From assembly GCF_001945525.1 (NCBI RefSeq), contig NZ_MPJW01000186.1, positions 1 to 39,173 of the forward strand: a DNA stretch of 39,173 nucleotides, read 5' to 3'. The notes under the pieces are model-generated. The model did no database searches. It was given only the letters and a program-made list of their open reading frames with translations, and was not told the origin of the DNA. This document shows positions 30,394 through 39,173 of the stretch, one piece after another. Made by a program: the position numbers and the translations under genes. Each line of letters begins with the position of its first letter. The stretch's first letter is position 1. Source of the DNA: Ileibacterium valens. Lineage in GTDB: Bacteria; Bacillota_I; Bacilli_A; Erysipelotrichales; Erysipelotrichaceae.

Positions 30394-31665
30394 TTAATAT
30401 CTGTTGTTTTGATATTGCTTTTTTCTTTTCCTGGAACTGGGAATATTCATCTCTTTTCGATACTTTGCAATTGTACGTCTTGACGCAAACAATTCCATCT
30501 CCTCTAAAGAAACTGAAATTTCTTCATCAAGATAAGGTTCTTCTGGATTTTCCTGATCGATCAATAGCTTCATTGCCCGTACGACTGCAGATTTTGAAGT
30601 TCCCTGACGAGTCTGAGAATCAAAGAGCGAATAAAAAGAAATTACTTTTCCATCCATCTCATAATACTTATCTTTTAGTGTTCGTGCGATTGTTGAAACA
30701 TGAAGGCCTGTTCTTTCTGACAGATCGCGCAAGGTACAAGGATTCTTCTCGATGCCATACATCAGATGACTTTCCTGGATGGACATCAATTCATTAACCA
30801 CAATCATCAAAGTCTGATTCCTTTTATTGATGGAATCAATAAAAAAGTGTGCCTGCCTGAAATACTCCCTGAGTTCAGCTGATGTATCTTTTTGCTTTTC
30901 GAATAATTCAATCTCTGGCAGCGCGGCTGGCTGAATCTGCAGATGATCATCTTCAACTGTAACAATGACTTCTGGCAACCGGGAAACTGCCGGTGAAGTG
31001 TCATACTCAGAACATGGATAAGGATTGCATCTTCTGACCTGTTCAAACAGTTCGTGGACTCTTTCAATAGAAAGATCCATTCTTTTTGCGATTCCTTCAA
31101 AGTTCTGAACAATGATCAGATCCTGACAGTTTTCAATCATCCATGCAGCCTGATCAAGATTCTTCATGTGCAGCTGAATGGCTATCGCATTCATGTTTGA
31201 ACTTGCCGCCACTCCATAAGGTTCAAAACTTTGCACCAGGTGAAGGCCTTTTAAAAACAGCTCAAAATTCATATGCAGGTATTTTGAACCTTCGATTGGA
31301 TCTTCTGTATAAAAACCATGTTCATCAAGAGATTCGATGATATAGCGAGCTGCTTTTATTTCCGGACCATCTTTTTGAAGCCGAAGCTGAGAATCAAGTT
31401 CTTCCTTCAGGCTTTTCTTGCTTGTCTGATTATCCCAGAAGTTCTCGCTGAGCGAACCTTCTACTGATATATACGGATTACTATCTGCTATGTCCCGGAT
31501 CTGATCAAGCAGTTCAGCTTTTGACATGGACAGAACACGAAGGTATTCCCCATGTTTTGAATTGAAGTTTTGAAGCTGCTGCATTGATGGCTTCATCAAC
31601 AACGTATTTTTCATCATCTTCATTATACGAAAATCAATTCTATTTCCTACACATTCAAAAATCAT
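30394..31665 (-). CDS. rpoN: RNA polymerase sigma-54 factor (RpoN)
   Basis: Directs RNA polymerase to -24/-12 promoters and needs an AAA+ activator. The 423-residue protein has a Gln/Leu-rich region I (LLMKPSMQQLQNFNSKHGEYLRVLSMSKAELLDQI), a core-binding domain, the CBD segment FFIDSINKRNQTLMIVVNELMSIQ, a helix-turn-helix (TLRDLSERTGLHVSTIARTLKDKY), and the RpoN box ASRRTIAKYRKEMNIPSSRKRKK. It is slightly short for the family. The first ATG (31665) has GGATGAG upstream; Met15 or later are alternatives with no ribosome site. It is divergent, by 84 bp, from a LevR-type activator whose target promoter is also in the window, so it may be dedicated to this locus. Confidence 0.95.
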   Translation of the reverse strand: MIFECVGNRIDFRIMKMMKNTLLMKPSMQQLQNFNSKHGEYLRVLSMSKAELLDQIRDIADSNPYISVEGSLSENFWDNQTSKKSLKEELDSQLRLQKDGPEIKAARYIIESLDEHGFYTEDPIEGSKYLHMNFELFLKGLHLVQSFEPYGVAASSNMNAIAIQLHMKNLDQAAWMIENCQDLIIVQNFEGIAKRMDLSIERVHELFEQVRRCNPYPCSEYDTSPAVSRLPEVIVTVEDDHLQIQPAALPEIELFEKQKDTSAELREYFRQAHFFIDSINKRNQTLMIVVNELMSIQESHLMYGIEKNPCTLRDLSERTGLHVSTIARTLKDKYYEMDGKVISFYSLFDSQTRQGTSKSAVVRAMKLLIDQENPEEPYLDEEISVSLEEMELFASRRTIAKYRKEMNIPSSRKRKKQYQNNRY

Positions 31666-31690
31666 ATCTCATCCAATCTCAGATGTGGGA

Positions 31691-31717
31691 TAATTGAATA
31701 ATCTATAGATTCAATTA
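31691..31717. promoter_or_regulatory. Palindromes in the rpoN/levR divergent region
   Basis: TAATTGAAT (31691-31699) and ATTCAATTA (31709-31717) form a 9-bp inverted repeat. A perfect 12-bp palindrome, AATCTATAGATT (31700-31711), overlaps it. A likely operator shared by rpoN and the activator gene; no -24/-12 promoter is seen here. Confidence 0.45.
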
Positions 31718-31749
31718 AAAACAACCGCTCAGAAAAGGAATTTGAAATT

Positions 31750-34509
31750 ATGGAAGGTAAAATTATTTCCTATCTTAATGCCTGTATGAATCATGATGAC
31801 TTGCCGTTAACCAGTGCCGTTCGATGTGCCAAAGCTTTGAAGGCAAGCCGAGTTGATGTGACTGCATGCATGAATAAATTGGTTCAGTCCAATGATCTTG
31901 TTCGGATACTGAGCCGCCCCTATCTCTATGTTCCTGTTTCATGGTTATCTGAACATTATATTTATACTGATCAATCGGAGTTTGCTTCCGTATCGGAATT
32001 CATGCAACTGTTTGAAAAGCAGACAACCAATACTCAGGATCCATTTGATCAGCTGGTTGGAAATCATCATTCTCTGAAACCAATGATCTCGCAGCTGAAA
32101 GCTGCAATCTCCTACCCACCAGAAGGTTTGCCTATTCTTCTAAAAGGGCCTACGGGAACAGGAAAATCAAAAATGGCCGCTTTAGCCTATGACTGGGCTA
32201 AGCAGAAAGGTCTTCTAAAAGAAGGTGCTCAGTTTGTTCAGCTCAACTGCTCTGAGTACGCCAATAACCCAGAACTGTTAAATGCGAGTCTGTTTGGTTA
32301 TGTCAAAGGAGCCTTTACCGGAGCCGATAAGGATACCAGTGGTCTTGCTGCCTTAGCTGATGGTGGAATTTTGTTTCTCGATGAAGTTCATAATCTTTCT
32401 GCACAATCTCAGGAAAAGCTGTTCCATTTGATGGATCAGGGAATATACCACCAGATGGGTGACAACGAAAACACTCTTTATTCCCATTGCCGCATGATCT
32501 TTGCAACAACTGAAGATCCGGATCAGGTGCTGCTTCGAACGTTAATGCGGCGGATACCGATCGTGATTGAAATTCCTTCCTTAAAGGAAAGAGGAAGAAG
32601 GGAACGAATTGCCCTGATCGCTCGCCTGATTGAGCAGGAACAAAAACGGCTTAACCGTCCAATTCAGCTTTCCGGTTCGGTTTATGATCTTTTGCTCAAT
32701 GCAGAAGTTCCAGGCAATATCGGTGAATTAAAATCGATTATCCAGTTTTGCTGCGTAAATGCCTTTTTTGAAGCGGATTCACTGGTTCGAATCAATCTGC
32801 ACCATGTTCCTTATAAGCTGATTTCTCAGCGGTCAATTACTGAAGCTCATCACCAGAATGTCCTGGATTTTTATACGGTAGAACAGTTGATTCAGCTCTA
32901 TGACAAGGACCAGAAAGCAATTTTATTCAGTAATCAGCTGCTTGAATTGTTTCAGGAACGTAATGCTGCTTCACAAGACGTATCCGCTTCATTGATTTTG
33001 CAGATGCGTGTTTTATTAATGAAGCATCTGGATGAAAGAATCGAAGAATCCTCTGAATCCGAGCACTCCTATTGCTGGATGGCCCTCAACCAGGCTTTCA
33101 CTTACCTTCAGGGCAAATCTCAGGATTCCAGAGATCCAGCCAGGCTTCTGGCACTGGCCTGGTTGATTCAGGAAATCTGTTTTAATGACATTGAGTATCA
33201 GAACTGGTCAATCTGCCATGAAGACGAATGCCAGCTCATTCTTAATGAACTCGAAAAGACGTATTTTAAGACTTTTCGAAGTGCCCAGGAAATCTGCCTG
33301 TTTTTACAATCTGCAGTTGAACTTTATATCTATCCCATGGTCATTATCATCATTTTCCTGTTTCTGATTGATCCGATTGAACAGGATGTTTATAAAGGAA
33401 GAGCACTTCTGATTGCCGCGCATGGTTTCTCAACCGCCAGTTCAATTGCAGATGCAGCCAATCAGCTGCTTGGAGATACCGTATTTGATGCCATTGACAT
33501 GCCAATCACCAGTTCTGTTGATGATGTGATTGAAAAGGTTCAAACCTATGCAGGCCGGTTTCCTCATCTTGAAGAGCTGATTCTTCTTGTCGATATGGGC
33601 AGTCTTGAAAGCATTCTGGATGGACTGAATTCATTAGAATGCTCCATCGGGCTGATTGATCACGTCTCGACACCTGTCGCTTTAGAAATTGGAACTCTTG
33701 TAAGTCAAAGAGAAGAGCTTGAATCCATGCTCGACAAAGTTTGCAAGCTTTCCTGTTCAGGCTACCGGCTGCGTCCTTCAATGCGCAAAAAGCCTGCAAT
33801 TGTCTGCTGCTGCGCAAGCGGAATCGGTACCGCGCGGCGTCTTGAATCACTGATCCAGTCTTCATTGCCTTCGGATTGCGATATTCGAGTATTATCTGTG
33901 AGCTATCCGCATCTGCTGCAGGAAAAGAAATCTAGTTCAGTCTTTCAAAAATGGAATGTCGTCTGTCTGGTTGGCACCTTGAATCCAAACTTGAAAGATG
34001 TCACTTTTATCAGCGTTGAAGACCTGATCATTCGTGATCACTTTATCCTGCTTGAGTCCTGTCTGGAAGGACTGTTTACAAAAGAACAGTCGGCTGAATT
34101 CCAGAAAAAACTGCTCAAAAATTTCTCGTTATATAACCTGATGTCTGAGCTGACCGTCCTAAATCCTCAAAAGCTGCTTGAACAGATTACCCCCTGTGTT
34201 GAACAGCTCCAAAATGATCTAAAGATCACTTTAAGTTCAACAACATGCATCGGACTTTATGTCCACATTTCCTGTCTGATCGAAAGAATTGCATTCAATC
34301 AGACGGAGGCGAAAAACCAGAATCTGGATTTAAATCCAGATTTACCAGCAAATCCAGAGCTTCGTCGCTTTATCCGTCTTTGCCGGGAATGTTTCAGATC
34401 CATCGAATCGCAATATCGGGTACGGATTCCGGATTCAGAAATCGCCTATATTTATGAATACATTCGTCATGATTCTCAAAACGAGGATTCAGAAACCGCT
34501 GATTTTTAA
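31750..34509 (+). CDS. LevR-type sigma-54-dependent PTS regulator
   Basis: A 919-residue activator. An N-terminal winged-helix-like domain (1-70) precedes an AAA+ domain with Walker A GPTGTGKS (133-140), the sigma-54 contact loop GAFTGA (187-192) and Walker B LFLDEVH (208-214). Next comes a PRD-like region (about 430-545), then a mannose-EIIA-like domain with His558 in LIAAHGFSTAS, an EIIB-like domain with CCCASGIGTARRL near residue 690, and a C-terminal PRD2 containing GLYVHISCLIERI. Phosphorylation of these sites by the PTS would couple activity to substrate and carbon supply. It is close to LevR (about 935 residues) and the Salmonella GfrR/DgaR group. The target is the downstream PTS operon. 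Confidence 0.93.
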   Translation: MEGKIISYLNACMNHDDLPLTSAVRCAKALKASRVDVTACMNKLVQSNDLVRILSRPYLYVPVSWLSEHYIYTDQSEFASVSEFMQLFEKQTTNTQDPFDQLVGNHHSLKPMISQLKAAISYPPEGLPILLKGPTGTGKSKMAALAYDWAKQKGLLKEGAQFVQLNCSEYANNPELLNASLFGYVKGAFTGADKDTSGLAALADGGILFLDEVHNLSAQSQEKLFHLMDQGIYHQMGDNENTLYSHCRMIFATTEDPDQVLLRTLMRRIPIVIEIPSLKERGRRERIALIARLIEQEQKRLNRPIQLSGSVYDLLLNAEVPGNIGELKSIIQFCCVNAFFEADSLVRINLHHVPYKLISQRSITEAHHQNVLDFYTVEQLIQLYDKDQKAILFSNQLLELFQERNAASQDVSASLILQMRVLLMKHLDERIEESSESEHSYCWMALNQAFTYLQGKSQDSRDPARLLALAWLIQEICFNDIEYQNWSICHEDECQLILNELEKTYFKTFRSAQEICLFLQSAVELYIYPMVIIIIFLFLIDPIEQDVYKGRALLIAAHGFSTASSIADAANQLLGDTVFDAIDMPITSSVDDVIEKVQTYAGRFPHLEELILLVDMGSLESILDGLNSLECSIGLIDHVSTPVALEIGTLVSQREELESMLDKVCKLSCSGYRLRPSMRKKPAIVCCCASGIGTARRLESLIQSSLPSDCDIRVLSVSYPHLLQEKKSSSVFQKWNVVCLVGTLNPNLKDVTFISVEDLIIRDHFILLESCLEGLFTKEQSAEFQKKLLKNFSLYNLMSELTVLNPQKLLEQITPCVEQLQNDLKITLSSTTCIGLYVHISCLIERIAFNQTEAKNQNLDLNPDLPANPELRRFIRLCRECFRSIESQYRVRIPDSEIAYIYEYIRHDSQNEDSETADF
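34431..34499 (+). promoter_or_regulatory. Candidate activator-binding repeats upstream of the sigma-54 promoter
   Basis: GGATTCAGAAATCGC (34431-34445) and GGATTCAGAAACCGC (34485-34499) are 54 bp apart, about five helical turns, and lie about 75-140 bp upstream of the -24 element, an ideal place for enhancer sites. They fall within the end of the activator's coding region and both encode Asp-Ser-Glu, so coding coincidence is possible. Confidence 0.35.
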
Positions 34510-34526
34510 TCGGCGGCTTTTTTTGC
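34496..34526 (+). terminator. Terminator overlapping the activator stop codon
   Basis: CCGCTGATT and AATCGGCGG (one G-U pair) around the stop codon, then CTTTTTTT. It separates the activator transcript from the PTS operon. Confidence 0.7.
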
Positions 34527-34571
34527 GAAATTTTTCAAAAATTTTTTTAATTTTTTCTGATTCCCTCTCTG

Positions 34572-34587
34572 TGGCACGTTTTTTGCT
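34572..34587 (+). promoter_or_regulatory. Sigma-54 (-24/-12) promoter of the PTS operon
   Basis: TGGCACGTTTTTTGCT is an exact match to the sigma-54 consensus TGGCAC-N5-TTGCW, with GG at 34573-34574 and GC at 34585-34586. It lies directly between the LevR-type activator gene and EIIA, with rpoN also in the locus. Confidence 0.93.
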
Positions 34588-34677
34588 GAATAAAGGGTGT
34601 AAGGCAAAAAGAAATAAATCAAAACAGTAAAAACCTGAATATCAGAACCAAAGCCGAACATCAAAGAGAGGAGAGAC

Positions 34678-34728
34678 ATGAAGAGGAGAATCGAAGGTAG
34701 AAAACAATTCAAAGCTGCAGATCCATAA
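34678..34728 (+). CDS. Predicted 16-residue leader peptide
   Basis: ATG to TAA, encoding MKRRIEGRKQFKAADP, with a strong GAGAGGAGAG site immediately upstream, inside the leader made from the sigma-54 promoter. Six of 16 residues are Lys or Arg. It may act in translation-dependent control of the operon. Only the ribosome site and the position support it. Confidence 0.45.
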   Translation: MKRRIEGRKQFKAADP

Positions 34729-34770
34729 ATTCTTCAGACTTATTCAGAAAACAGGATCTGACCGATCAAA

Positions 34771-34854
34771 ATGATCAAAGCAATAAAAAGAAATGCCTTA
34801 ATTGAGTGTAGAAAAGAAAGGAATTTACAACAGACAAAGGAAAAGAATTTATGA
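34771..34854 (+). CDS. Predicted 27-residue small ORF overlapping the EIIA start
   Basis: Begins MIKAIKRNALIECRKERN and ends at a TGA that overlaps the EIIA start codon as ATGA, a classic translational-coupling layout. Eight of 27 residues are Lys or Arg. Its own ribosome site is weak (AGGA 14 bases upstream), so it could be a chance frame. Confidence 0.3.
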   Translation: MIKAIKRNALIECRKERNLQQTKEKNL

Positions 34855-35264
34855 CCGAAATCATTCTCGCATCTCATGGATCGTTATCCAAGGGACTGCT
34901 GAATACCTTGTCCATGATCGTTGGAAATCCCGGTGATCATGTACGAGCTTATTCGCTGAATCCAGGAGAAAATCCAAGGGACTTTCTGAACGAGCTTGAA
35001 CTTGAAGTCACTCGATCAGAAAACCAGTACATCATCATGACTGACATTCAAGGCGGCAGCGTTCATACCGCTCTTTCAGAACTGATCCAGTACCCAAATG
35101 TTGCGCTGTTTTCCGGAATGAACCTGCCAATGGCTCTGGAAGTCCTGACTCGTTCTCAAAACGGAATCGATGAATCTGAATTTGAATCACTGATTGATTC
35201 ATCACGAATGGGCATTGGATTGCTGCATCACACCCTCACCGCTTCAGCGGATGAAGAATTTTAG
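34851..35264 (+). CDS. PTS mannose/fructose-family EIIA
   Basis: A 137-residue cytosolic phosphocarrier that takes phosphate from HPr and passes it to EIIB. The active-site His9 is in ILASHGSLSKG. The MTDIQGGSVHTAL and GMNLPMALEVL stretches are standard for the mannose family. AGGA lies nine bases before the ATG. First structural gene of a five-gene operon, separated from EIIB by 11 bp. Confidence 0.92.
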   Translation: MTEIILASHGSLSKGLLNTLSMIVGNPGDHVRAYSLNPGENPRDFLNELELEVTRSENQYIIMTDIQGGSVHTALSELIQYPNVALFSGMNLPMALEVLTRSQNGIDESEFESLIDSSRMGIGLLHHTLTASADEEF

Positions 35265-35275
35265 GAGGATATCAA

Positions 35276-35746
35276 ATGATTACATTAACACGCGTTGATC
35301 ATCGTCTGCTTCATGGCCAGATCGCTTTTTCCTGGACCACTGACCGCAATGCCAACTGCATTTTAATCGCAAACGACGCAGTCATTAAAGACGATCTGCG
35401 GAAAACCTCATTGAAACTGGCTAAACCCGCCGGCTGCAAGCTGGTCATCAAAAGCCTTGATGATTCCATCAAAGCGATTAACAGCGGAGTCACCGATAAA
35501 TACCGTCTGCTGATTGTGGTTGAATCCATCGCTGATGCCAAAAAACTGATCGATGGATGTTCTTGTGTCAAATCATTAAATCTGGGAGGAACGAAAGCCG
35601 CTTCAAATACCCGACAGATTTCAAAAGCCATGAACATCACAGATCAGGATGCTGCAGATCTTAAAGAACTGATGAACAGAGGAGTTGAAGTTGAAATTCG
35701 AATGCTGCCTCAGGATAAGAAAATCGATGCAGCCAGTTTGATCTGA
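35276..35746 (+). CDS. PTS mannose/fructose-family EIIB
   Basis: A 156-residue cytosolic subunit that transfers phosphate from EIIA to the incoming sugar. RVDHRLLHGQ carries the phosphorylated His13. LNLGGTKA and the DLKELMNRGVEVEIRMLP end are family typical. AGGAGG precedes the start. Confidence 0.93.
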   Translation: MITLTRVDHRLLHGQIAFSWTTDRNANCILIANDAVIKDDLRKTSLKLAKPAGCKLVIKSLDDSIKAINSGVTDKYRLLIVVESIADAKKLIDGCSCVKSLNLGGTKAASNTRQISKAMNITDQDAADLKELMNRGVEVEIRMLPQDKKIDAASLI

Positions 35747-35797
35747 ACAACAAAATAAAAAGAATCAATTCATTCATTCTCAGAGAAAGGAAATCTT

Positions 35798-36574
35798 ATG
35801 ACAATCGTACATGCTCTGCTGCTAGGCGCTCTTGCATTTATTGGCAAACTCGATCTGGCAACGGGAACCTCAATGATCTCCCGCCCGATCGTATTAGGAC
35901 CTCTTGTTGGTCTGGTACTTGGCAATTTTGAAGCCGGAGTCAAAATTGGAGCCACACTGGAACTGGCTTTTCTTGGTCAGTACTCAGTTGGAGCCTACAT
36001 TCCACCTAATGTAATCGTTGGCGGAATTCTTGGTACCGCTTTTGCGATCACAACCGGAAAAGGAGCAGATATCGCATTCACAATGGCATTCCCAATCGCC
36101 ATGCTGATGCAGATTATCGATAACCTGTTATTTTCCATCGTACGCCCAATGCTCGCTAAGGTTGCAGACCGATATGCCGAGCAGGGAAATCCAGGAGGAA
36201 TCGATCGAATTCACTTTGCCTGTGGTCTGATTACCTGTACTGCTTTATTTATCGTAACCGCTGCTGGATACGCTTTAGGATCCGCTCACATCCAGGCTTT
36301 TGTCGATGCCATCCCCGAAGTTATTACAAAGGGACTGAGCATCGCCTGTGGAATTCTCCCAGCATTAGGATTTGCGATGCTTGCCCGAATGGTTATGAGT
36401 GGAAAAGTACTCCCATTCTTCTTTCTTGGATTTGCCGTTGCAGCCTATTTCGGACTGCCGATCGTTGCCATCGCAGTTCTTGGAGTATTGCTTGTAGCCA
36501 TTATGATGAACAACTATGGATTTGCTTCACCGCAGGCTGAAGCCATTGTGGAGGTAGAAGATGACGACTTCTAA
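35798..36574 (+). CDS. PTS mannose/fructose-family EIIC
   Basis: A 258-residue membrane channel subunit with about seven hydrophobic helices. KIGATLELAFLGQYSVGAYIPPNVIVGGILGTAFAI is the conserved EIIC-man core. GAAAGGAAA lies upstream of the ATG. The acidic tail (EVEDDDF) overlaps the EIID start by 14 bp. Confidence 0.94.
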   Translation: MTIVHALLLGALAFIGKLDLATGTSMISRPIVLGPLVGLVLGNFEAGVKIGATLELAFLGQYSVGAYIPPNVIVGGILGTAFAITTGKGADIAFTMAFPIAMLMQIIDNLLFSIVRPMLAKVADRYAEQGNPGGIDRIHFACGLITCTALFIVTAAGYALGSAHIQAFVDAIPEVITKGLSIACGILPALGFAMLARMVMSGKVLPFFFLGFAVAAYFGLPIVAIAVLGVLLVAIMMNNYGFASPQAEAIVEVEDDDF

Positions 36575-37382
36575 TAACAAGATCATTAACAAAAAAGATC
36601 TCAAAAAAATGTTCTGGCGTTCTCTTTCCATGGAATATTCCTGGCATTATGAACGTCAAATGCATATGGGTTTCTGCCATATGATCAACGATGGACTCAA
36701 AAAGATTTATAAGGATAAACCGGAAGAACTATCAAAAGCTCTGCAAAGACACATGGAATTTTTCAACATCACCGCTGCGTTGGCTCCATTTGTCGGCGGG
36801 ATTACCCTGGCGATGGAAGAGATGAATGCCAATGATCCAGATTTTGATACTTCAAGTATTAACTCTGTTAAAGCCGCATTGATGGGTCCTCTTTCTGGAA
36901 TTGGTGATTCGCTGCTTTTAGGAACCTTAAGAATTCTTGCCGTTGGAATTGGCGCTTCCCTTTCCATGCAGGGCAACCCGTTAGGACCAATTATCTTCCT
37001 GTTAGTATTCAATGTTCCCTGTTTTATCCTGCGCTGGTTCTGCTCTACAAAAGCCTATGAACTTGGAGCCAATTATCTCTCAAAGCTGCAGGCTTCTGGA
37101 ATGATGGAAAAATTCATGCTGGCAGCAGCTATCCTTGGAGCCATCGTAATCGGTGGTATGACCAAAGAGCTGGTCAGCATCAGCACTCCGCTTACATTAG
37201 GATCTGGTGAATCGGCTACAACGATTCAATCCATTCTTGATTCACTGCTTCCTGGAATGCTTGGTTTGTTTGCAACAGGAATCTATTACAAACTGCTTGA
37301 AAAGAAAGTAAACGTCATCTGGGTATTACTCGGAACTGCACTGATTGGAATTCTTGGGGCCTGGACTGGAATTCTTGGATAA
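36561..37382 (+). CDS. PTS mannose/fructose-family EIID
   Basis: A 273-residue membrane partner of EIIC. The WRSLSMEYSWHYERQMHMGFCHMINDGLKKIY start, the MEFFNITAALAPFVGGITLAMEE segment and the MGPLSGIGDSLLLGTLRILAVGIGASLSMQGNPLGPIIF signature are all typical of EIID. The start overlaps EIIC, so translation is probably coupled. About 250 bp follow before the next gene. Confidence 0.94.
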   Translation: MTTSNNKIINKKDLKKMFWRSLSMEYSWHYERQMHMGFCHMINDGLKKIYKDKPEELSKALQRHMEFFNITAALAPFVGGITLAMEEMNANDPDFDTSSINSVKAALMGPLSGIGDSLLLGTLRILAVGIGASLSMQGNPLGPIIFLLVFNVPCFILRWFCSTKAYELGANYLSKLQASGMMEKFMLAAAILGAIVIGGMTKELVSISTPLTLGSGESATTIQSILDSLLPGMLGLFATGIYYKLLEKKVNVIWVLLGTALIGILGAWTGILG

Positions 37383-37632
37383 AAATACAAAAAGATCAAA
37401 AATCTTAACTCTAAGCACTCTGATCCATATCAGAACAACTTTTATCAACTATAGCCAGAAGTTCGCAGCTTTCGGCACAGCTCTAACCTGTCTGGAGCAG
37501 GAATGTTCAAAAAAGAAATCATGATGCTAAGCGAAACCATGGATAGAATTTCCTGCTCCTCATTCTTTTTAAATCAACTGTTTCAAATACGAAACCAGAA
37601 TAAATCGATGAAAAATCAAAGGAGAAAAGAAA

Positions 37633-38646
37633 ATGTCTGAAGTAAAAACTATGCTGAATTTTGATGAGGAAAAAGTAAGATCCGATCACCAGAATGGAGT
37701 CGATCTGATCCCGGCTGCTGAAGCCATTGTAGATGAAATCTGCAATCAGGGATATTCCAATATTTTCCTGGTAGGAATCGGAGGAACTGTGTTTTACGCT
37801 GGCCAGATCAAACACACAATTCGTCAGCTTGGATGTACCTTACCAATCTATGTAGAAAACGCTGCTGACCTTCTCTATGAAGGAAATGCAAATCTGAATA
37901 AGGATTCTGTGATCGTTATCGCTTCGCTGTCTGGAAATACGATTGAAGTTGAACAGTTTATCGATAAAGCTCATGAAATTGGATGCCGTGTAATTGGATA
38001 TGTGGAAAAACTGAATACTCCATTGGCTGAAAAATCTGATTATCTTGTCAATACAGTCGGCGGTGAATACTACTGGTGGTATACAGTGGCTCTTCGATTC
38101 ATGAAAAATGCCGGGCAGTTTGATGACTATGATCAGCTGATGGAACAGATTAAGGCTTTGCCTGACAATGTCGTACAGATTTATAAGGATGCAGATGATC
38201 AGATGAAAGAATACGCTGAAAAATATTGCGATGAGCCAATCACCTATCTGATAGCTTCTGGAAACTTGGAAGACTGGGCCATGTGCTATGGAACCTGCAT
38301 CATGGAAGAAATGCAGTGGATGAAAACAAGACCTGTTTCTGGAGCTAACTTCTTCCATGGCACTCTTGAAGTCGTTGATCGCGATATTCCGGTTATGGTA
38401 ATCAAAGGTGAAGATCAGACTCGTCCACAGATGGATCGCGTTGAAAAATTCGTAAATAGAATCTCCAGAAAAGTTACAGTATTTGATACGAAAGATTTCG
38501 ATCTGATCGGTATCGATGACAAATTCCGCGGAATTCTCTCTCCAATCGTCATGCGTTCTGCATTTATGCGCTTAAACGTTCATTTAGAAGAAGCCAGAAA
38601 GCATCCGATCGATATCCGCCGTTATTACAAAGCTCTTGACTACTAA
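37633..38646 (+). CDS. SIS-domain sugar-phosphate deglycase (FrlB/GfrF/FraB type)
   Basis: A 337-residue cytosolic enzyme with two SIS domains. The first contains VGIGGTVFYAGQIKHTI and ASLSGNTIEVEQF, the phosphosugar site. The second contains MEEMQWMKTRPVSGANFFHGTLE, where Glu226 and His242 are 16 residues apart, the same spacing as the Glu/His pair I recall as catalytic in the fructose-asparagine deglycase FraB. Enzymes of this type split a 6-phosphorylated Amadori compound into an amino acid and a hexose 6-phosphate. Its position after a mannose-family PTS under a LevR-type activator parallels Salmonella gfrABCDEF (fructoselysine and glucoselysine). Glucosamine-6-phosphate synthase isomerase-like or AgaS-like activity is less likely. 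AGGAG lies eight bases upstream. Confidence 0.85.
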   Translation: MSEVKTMLNFDEEKVRSDHQNGVDLIPAAEAIVDEICNQGYSNIFLVGIGGTVFYAGQIKHTIRQLGCTLPIYVENAADLLYEGNANLNKDSVIVIASLSGNTIEVEQFIDKAHEIGCRVIGYVEKLNTPLAEKSDYLVNTVGGEYYWWYTVALRFMKNAGQFDDYDQLMEQIKALPDNVVQIYKDADDQMKEYAEKYCDEPITYLIASGNLEDWAMCYGTCIMEEMQWMKTRPVSGANFFHGTLEVVDRDIPVMVIKGEDQTRPQMDRVEKFVNRISRKVTVFDTKDFDLIGIDDKFRGILSPIVMRSAFMRLNVHLEEARKHPIDIRRYYKALDY

Positions 38647-38918: not shown

Positions 38919-39173
38919 TCAGATTTCGCTTTTCTGCTCCTTTAATTTTCCATAACGTTCGAGTTCTGGGCAACTCATCCGATTTCTGTTGTTTAATTTT
39001 CTGATATTGTGTCCCATGGCCACAATAAGCACCTCAAATTTTACGTTTTCCAGTCCCCGGCGTCTCAATCGGCTGTATCTGTAGTTTTCTTTAAGATCTC
39101 CGAAGGTTCCTTCCGCCTGAATGCTCCGGCTGACCATAATCTCATGTCCTGCATCTGAAGACATGTTCTCCCG
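38919..39173 (-). CDS. IS1182-family DDE transposase, C-terminal fragment
   Basis: The frame is open to the window edge, so only the last 84 residues are seen. RSIQAEGTFGDLKENYRYSRLRRRGLENVKFEVLIVAMGHNIRKLNNR is the conserved C-terminal block of IS1182/IS5-like transposases, including the catalytic-region Glu in QAEGTFGDLK. The product cuts and joins the ends of its own element. It cannot be told here whether the gene is complete beyond the edge. Confidence 0.88.
   Translation of the reverse strand, partial: RENMSSDAGHEIMVSRSIQAEGTFGDLKENYRYSRLRRRGLENVKFEVLIVAMGHNIRKLNNRNRMSCPELERYGKLKEQKSEI

Follow-up and report, generated by a model that had tools for sequence, protein, structure and literature searches.

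The contig NZ_MPJW01000186.1 of Ileibacterium valens, analysed whole as a window of 39,173 nucleotides (nt) and belonging to a host genome of 2.74 Mb that is 98% complete, carries an 8-kb locus that is probably a self-contained cassette for an Amadori compound, fructoselysine or a close relative, with a sigma-54 of its own. The locus consists of rpoN on the reverse strand, a divergent gene for a LevR-type activator, a -24/-12 promoter, genes for the EIIA, EIIB, EIIC and EIID subunits of a phosphotransferase system (PTS), and one gene for a SIS-domain deglycase (Table 1). A first-pass annotation had placed these seven genes and the promoter together within about 8 kb and read them as a probable Amadori-compound locus; all lie where it had put them, each gene is confirmed by domain or sequence matches, and the reading is supported by the GfrF-side position of the deglycase and by the Gfr type of the PTS. 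Catabolism of an Amadori compound is well supported, and the sequence itself establishes the gene content, the clades of PTS and deglycase, the linkage and the co-inheritance. Beyond this genome, gene neighbourhoods and co-inheritance indicate that the sigma-54 of Erysipelotrichales is inherited as part of an operon-linked activator-PTS cassette, often several per genome, and not as one global factor.

A Gfr-type phosphotransferase system

Comparison with Gfr subunits of Klebsiella and with Man and Aga proteins of Escherichia coli identifies the window PTS as Gfr-type, an assignment that draws on trees and identity for EIIC and EIID and on identity for EIIB, EIIA reaching only 28%. EIIB, EIIC and EIID all resemble Gfr more closely than Man or Aga, bearing out the proposed likeness to the PTS class of Salmonella gfr, and the trees place EIIC and EIID within the Gfr clade with support of 0.993 and 0.967, respectively. 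Specifically, both fall into a sub-clade shared with two Erysipelotrichaceae loci, L123 and L135, which carry true GfrF-type deglycases. Family-level annotation assigns the subunits to mannose/sorbose/AgaW, as would be expected of an ordinary LevR/Aga operon for mannose, fructose or N-acetylgalactosamine whose SIS protein is AgaS- or GlmS-like. Such an operon is very improbable here, since identities and trees set the subunits closer to Gfr, and AgaS gives no usable match to the SIS protein, to which GlmS is only 21% identical.

The deglycase and its substrate

In a tree of 98 SIS proteins with AgaS as outgroup, the window deglycase falls in a separate clade (n = 29, support 0.995), apart from AgaS, GfrE and FrlB/FraB, and this clade is placed on the GfrF side with support of only 0.63. 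The earlier description as a FrlB/GfrF-type enzyme, for which a tree had been proposed as a check, stands as far as the GfrF side and the separation from AgaS, GlmS-type enzymes and GfrE are concerned, but the tree makes the protein neither FrlB nor GfrF but a member of a distinct clade adjoining GfrF. The protein retains Glu226 and His242, a Glu and a His being what we take to be the general acid and base of fructosamine-6-phosphate deglycases. Glu226 is kept as in FrlB, FraB-like proteins and GfrF; the corresponding residue is Thr in the GfrE reference and Leu in AgaS. A conserved general acid and base exist in FrlB/FraB/GfrF-type deglycases (PMC9609667).

The same gene order, rpoN-levR-EIIABCD-deglycase, occurs in Floccifex porci, Faecalibacillus faecis and Sharpea azabuensis, together with a HAD-type phosphatase, and members of the deglycase clade in Lachnospiraceae, Enterocloster, Caproiciproducens and others lie in fructoselysine-type clusters, often with FrlC and an ABC transporter. 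Among the 20 same-clade loci outside rpoN-type loci (L175-L194), about 17 have a FrlD-type kinase, about 17 a FrlR-type regulator, and 16 a second deglycase, of the FrlB clade. Two findings count against the favoured reading of the locus: the window deglycase shares only 34% identity with Klebsiella GfrF, and its Lachnospiraceae clade members accompany a separate FrlB, so the substrate may differ from fructoselysine-6-phosphate. The enzyme might then act on another glycated compound, such as glucoselysine-6-phosphate or a different glycated amino acid, and the locus would not be a fructoselysine pathway, an assignment of real weight that we nevertheless hold to be the less probable. It is favoured by the separation of the clade from GfrF and by its place beside canonical FrlB in Lachnospiraceae frl clusters, as if for a second substrate; against it, the enzyme falls outside the clade of GfrE, the glucoselysine enzyme, and has retained a Glu that is missing from GfrE, and the window PTS is sister to that of L123 and L135, suggesting that GfrF was replaced for the same import product. 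The PTS sub-clade would argue for fructoselysine, the company of FrlB for another substrate, and we know of no substrate assigned so far to this deglycase clade.

A truncated copy of the window-type deglycase, 73% identical, is found on Enterococcus faecium plasmids, one of them typed conjugative; on plasmid pK70-1a-A (L169, 2812-3372) it adjoins an IS1216 transposase gene, with a second SIS-PTS operon close by.

Promoter, activator and predicted control

The -24/-12 element starts 63 bp past the levR stop codon, an intrinsic terminator standing between the two, and is the only exact match to TGGCAC-N5-TTGCW in the window. The genome contains a single further exact match (C110:48332), and base counting predicts about 2.6 genome-wide; lying directly behind rpoC without a plausible gene downstream, the further match was rejected as a second sigma-54 promoter. 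Because exact matches are about as numerous as chance would give, it is where the element lies, and its recurrence in relatives, that supports the promoter call, and not its scarcity. In the relatives' cassette DNA, 1.02 Mb in all, 50 copies of the strict pattern are found, and in 30 of 51 related loci one lies directly 3' of levR; the reversed control gives 0 in both cases. The exact promoter of the first-pass annotation is thus upheld by its position after levR and its recurrence. All cassette promoters share TGGCAYRN4TTGCT, and in Klebsiella gfr a -24/-12 site lies 52 bp upstream of gfrA. Tandem arrangements also occur: L123 carries three -24/-12 elements in succession, and in Faecalibacillus faecis (L173, 7041-7445) the PTS operon is preceded by a unit of about 67 bp repeated in tandem, whose copies carry such elements, several of them exact; by sequence this is an array of sigma-54 promoters.

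The activator, which over 924 positions shares 31% identity with Klebsiella GfrR, contains the Walker A motif GPTGTGKS, a Walker B motif and GAFTGA at residue 187. Its predicted phospho-acceptors, His558 in the EIIA-man-like domain, Cys688 in the EIIB-like domain and His839 in PRD2, are invariant across 43 LevR proteins and Klebsiella GfrR. In LevR-type activators, phosphorylation of the PRD2 histidine by EII inhibits, and substrate flow relieves this inhibition (PMC4987338). For substrate, phosphorylation-dependent control and operator site, we infer the following scheme. The Gfr-type mannose-family PTS would import a glycated amino acid and phosphorylate it at C6, and the SIS-domain deglycase would cleave the phosphorylated compound, releasing glucose-6-phosphate and the amino acid. 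During substrate flow, EII phosphate would pass to the sugar rather than to His839 of LevR, and the relieved activator, bound upstream of the promoter, would drive open-complex formation at the -24/-12 element by RNA polymerase carrying the sigma-54 that the divergent rpoN of the same cassette would supply.

A perfect 22-bp palindrome, AATCTGGATTTAAATCCAGATT, lies within the 3' end of levR, 251 bp upstream of the -24 element. No other perfect palindrome of this length occurs in the window, none arose when the 291-bp region was shuffled 4000 times, and in the host genome the sequence is unique, the next-best site having 3 mismatches. Perfect palindromes upstream of the promoter were rejected as a general LevR site, since only the window, G041 (L122) and, weakly, L144 stand out; because the position is not general in relatives, the palindrome is only a candidate LevR enhancer site. 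A second inverted repeat, TAATTGAATAATCTATAGATTCAATTA, between rpoN and levR, is the sole match in the window allowing up to 3 mismatches.

A sigma-54 probably dedicated to one locus in the host

The window RpoN has its core-binding and DNA-binding domains and the RpoN box SRRTIAKYRK. Its true start is likely at 31614 (residue 18), 17 residues inside the annotated open reading frame (ORF), because the ORF aligns from there with relatives, which begin with MK(Q/N). Region I is divergent yet alignable end to end; the Pfam AID domain scores 17.5 bits, below the cut-off of 23.8, and was therefore missed by the AID model in the genome scan, whereas in 34 of 36 relatives it is matched at E <= 0.01.

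Profile searches of the host genome find only one RpoN and only one sigma-54 activator, the window LevR; a second, weak match to PF00158 was rejected as an activator, being a ClpC/ClpB-type ATPase. With one RpoN, one activator and no other convincing -24/-12 promoter, and with 2% of the genome missing, the host sigma-54 seems indeed to work for this locus and for hardly anything else. The first-pass annotation had suggested that the factor might serve mainly this pathway and had named such a scan as the check; the scan agrees. Its implication that rpoN linkage is special to this locus does not hold, as such linkage is the rule in Erysipelotrichales.

Linkage of rpoN and its activator across Erysipelotrichales

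Among 146 Erysipelotrichaceae genomes, 35 contain RpoN, and the surroundings of 50 rpoN genes were compared. A LevR-type gene lies within 8 kb of rpoN in 46 of the 50 and within 300 bp in 25, and is divergent in 32. Of the four unlinked genes, two belong to a genome of 66% completeness and one to a 3-kb contig from a genome of 79% completeness; the fourth is in G012, where RpoN is present without a strong sigma-54 activator. In the order-wide survey, a strong activator is found in 34 of 35 genomes with RpoN, compared with 6 of 161 genomes without it. In other genomes across the order, about ten additional rpoN genes likewise have an activator at a distance of no more than about 3 kb, which in three cases is a shorter one of about 640 residues instead of LevR. 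At class level, sigma-54 occurs in 2 of the 130 genomes sampled, which is too rare to inform on linkage. Two loci, L155 (G069) and L158 (G090), have strong sigma-54 activator domains in proteins of about 650-670 residues in genomes without detected RpoN, and Caproiciproducens galactitolivorans (L184, 3463-9800) has LevR, a -24/-12 site, RpoN and ORFs of 90 and 552 residues, the sizes of HPr and EI, beside an frl-type ABC cluster.

Several genomes hold two rpoN genes, and the maximum is five, in G128, an assembly with 6% contamination but with two copies on one 1.28-Mb contig. RpoN and LevR distances are correlated (Mantel r = 0.475, 0 of 999 permutations), and when partners are exchanged within genomes the observed correlation is matched in 0 of 2000 shuffles, this within-genome shuffle being the only control for shared ancestry. 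In addition, a strict -24/-12 site lies within 160 bp upstream of six rpoN genes (control 0), the window rpoN not among them, which suggests self-activation of those six but not of the window gene.

Linkage of this kind could also be a mere by-product of horizontal transfer, the sigma-54 being interchangeable and global in the cell without special pairing, an explanation to which we give somewhat less than an even chance. The common promoter motif and the genomes with more LevRs than RpoNs would fit it, whereas the upkeep of several rpoN genes beside their own activators in place of one shared copy, the co-segregation of partners beyond all 2000 shuffles and the promoters upstream of six rpoN genes speak against it, and in the host genome a single activator means that sigma-54 cannot be global. 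The further proposal of a portable, operon-encoded sigma-54 for each LevR-PTS cassette, several per cell, with pairs co-evolved to work mainly with their own partner, is advanced tentatively and as the minority view. Three findings tell against dedicated pairing: LevRs outnumber RpoNs in some genomes (four to two in G042), so strict one-to-one service does not hold everywhere; the nearest neighbour of the window RpoN in its tree does not match that of the window LevR; and the cassette promoters are alike, so that insulation between cassettes is not evident and strong orthogonality appears doubtful.

Sigma-54 is usually viewed as a single shared factor for many activators. In Erysipelotrichales it would rather be an adjunct of individual sugar operons, acquired, lost and copied together with them, which poses a concrete, testable question, namely whether sigma-54 and activator can specialise into insulated pairs. 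The window locus, for its part, marks gut Erysipelotrichaceae as likely consumers of glycated amino acids.

Other features of the locus

The distance from promoter to EIIA is 263 bp in the window and about 40 bp in relatives. This 263-nt leader (34588-34850), some 225 nt longer than theirs, holds a possible 16-codon ORF at 34679 (MKRRIEGRKQFKAADP) with a good ribosome-binding site ahead; apart from a 25-bp match, it has no copy elsewhere in the host genome, and its fold is not unusual (z = -0.8). The spacer between EIID and the deglycase has a fold z of -2.1, with no Rfam match and no similarity elsewhere, and the Rfam search as a whole gave nothing credible. A common mobile element was rejected as the source of leader and spacer, which share no sequence. 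In its EIID-deglycase interval, L122 (6946-8261) has two extra genes, amidohydrolase-like and YjbQ-like by eye, that are absent from other loci. At 38919-39173 the contig terminates within an 84-residue ORF that presumably resembles the C-terminal part of an IS1182-type transposase; in L173, a similar transposase N-terminus adjoins rpoN.

Table 1. Features of the sigma-54 locus in the window, with the matches on which each call is based
Feature	Position	Strand	Evidence
rpoN (sigma-54)	30394..31665	-	PF04963 1.6e-31, PF04552 3.3e-32
Inverted repeat TAATTGAATAATCTATAGATTCAATTA, rpoN-levR intergenic, possible operator	31691..31717	.	putative function
LevR/GfrR-type sigma-54 activator	31750..34509	+	AAA+, EIIA-man-like, EIIB-like and PRD2 domains
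Palindrome AATCTGGATTTAAATCCAGATT, candidate LevR enhancer site	34321..34342	.	perfect 22 bp, within levR 3' end
levR intrinsic terminator, CCGCTGATTTTTAATCGGCGG then T run	34496..34530	+	sequence, inverted repeat
-24/-12 promoter TGGCACGTTTTTTGCT	34572..34587	+	exact TGGCAC-N5-TTGCW
PTS EIIA (mannose family)	34851..35264	+	PF03610 7.4e-15; 28% identity to Klebsiella GfrA
PTS EIIB	35276..35746	+	PF03830 9.7e-48; 59% to Klebsiella GfrB, 29-30% to ManX/AgaV/AgaB
PTS EIIC	35798..36574	+	PF03609 4.5e-69; 49% to GfrC, 30-32% to AgaC/ManY
PTS EIID	36561..37382	+	PF03613 2.2e-99; 48% to GfrD, 33-35% to AgaD/ManZ
250-nt spacer, EIID to deglycase	37383..37632	+	absent from several relatives; stem GGAGCAGGAA/TTCCTGCTCC
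SIS-domain deglycase, 337 aa	37633..38646	+	PDB 2a3n E = 1.6e-65; tree; residues

Comparison with known systems

The nearest counterpart is gfrABCDEF with GfrR of Salmonella and Klebsiella, which shares with the window a mannose-family PTS (EIIB, EIIC and EIID 48-59% identical), a LevR-type activator, a -24/-12 promoter and SIS-domain deglycases. The Klebsiella operon, beside opgB and dnaTC, encodes a LevR-type activator, gfrABCD, a GfrE of 353 residues and a GfrF of 337 residues, the last two identified from their place in the operon and from the similarity of the second gene to PDB 2a3n, which we take to be Salmonella STM4540. These operons have two deglycases and no rpoN, whereas the window has rpoN and one deglycase of another clade. 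That single deglycase, singled out in the first-pass annotation, is indeed the only one of its kind found in the host genome, but a one-deglycase gfr is not unique: the seven-gene gfrABCDF operon of Faecalibacterium prausnitzii, likewise from a gut member of the Bacillota, also combines a Gfr-type PTS with one deglycase and lacks gfrE (PMC12136445). In its regulatory genes it departs from the Salmonella operon, and the accessible part of that report describes no rpoN (PMC12136445).

The frl operons of E. coli, B. subtilis and Lachnospiraceae share fructosamine-6-phosphate deglycase chemistry with the window, whose deglycase belongs to a clade found inside the Lachnospiraceae clusters; they differ in using a permease or ABC transporter with the FrlD kinase, GntR-type regulation and no PTS. 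The LevR/ManR operons of Bacillota share the LevR-type activator and the mannose-family PTS but differ in substrate, and rpoN-activator gene linkage is not described in the accessible part of an account that presents Lactobacillus plantarum as a genome with a single sigma-54 activator (PMC3162934). LevR-controlled gfr operons, one-deglycase gfr, single-activator sigma-54 genomes and multiple rpoN paralogs are each already known singly. A search limited to open-access literature turned up no description of rpoN as a recurring component of LevR-PTS cassettes, an absence that counts as weak evidence.

In a survey covering 1,414 organisms, Erysipelotrichia are reported to have few sigma-54 factors and few activators; rpoN was detected there by three Pfam domains including AID, the domain that is weak in the window RpoN (PMC12316311). 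The notable multi-copy case of the survey is Rhodobacter sphaeroides, an example of the alphaproteobacteria, where rpoN paralogs, up to four copies, divide the labour (PMC12316311). Both R. sphaeroides and Erysipelotrichales have several sigma-54 genes, whereas in Erysipelotrichales nearly every copy, up to five, stands beside a LevR-PTS operon.

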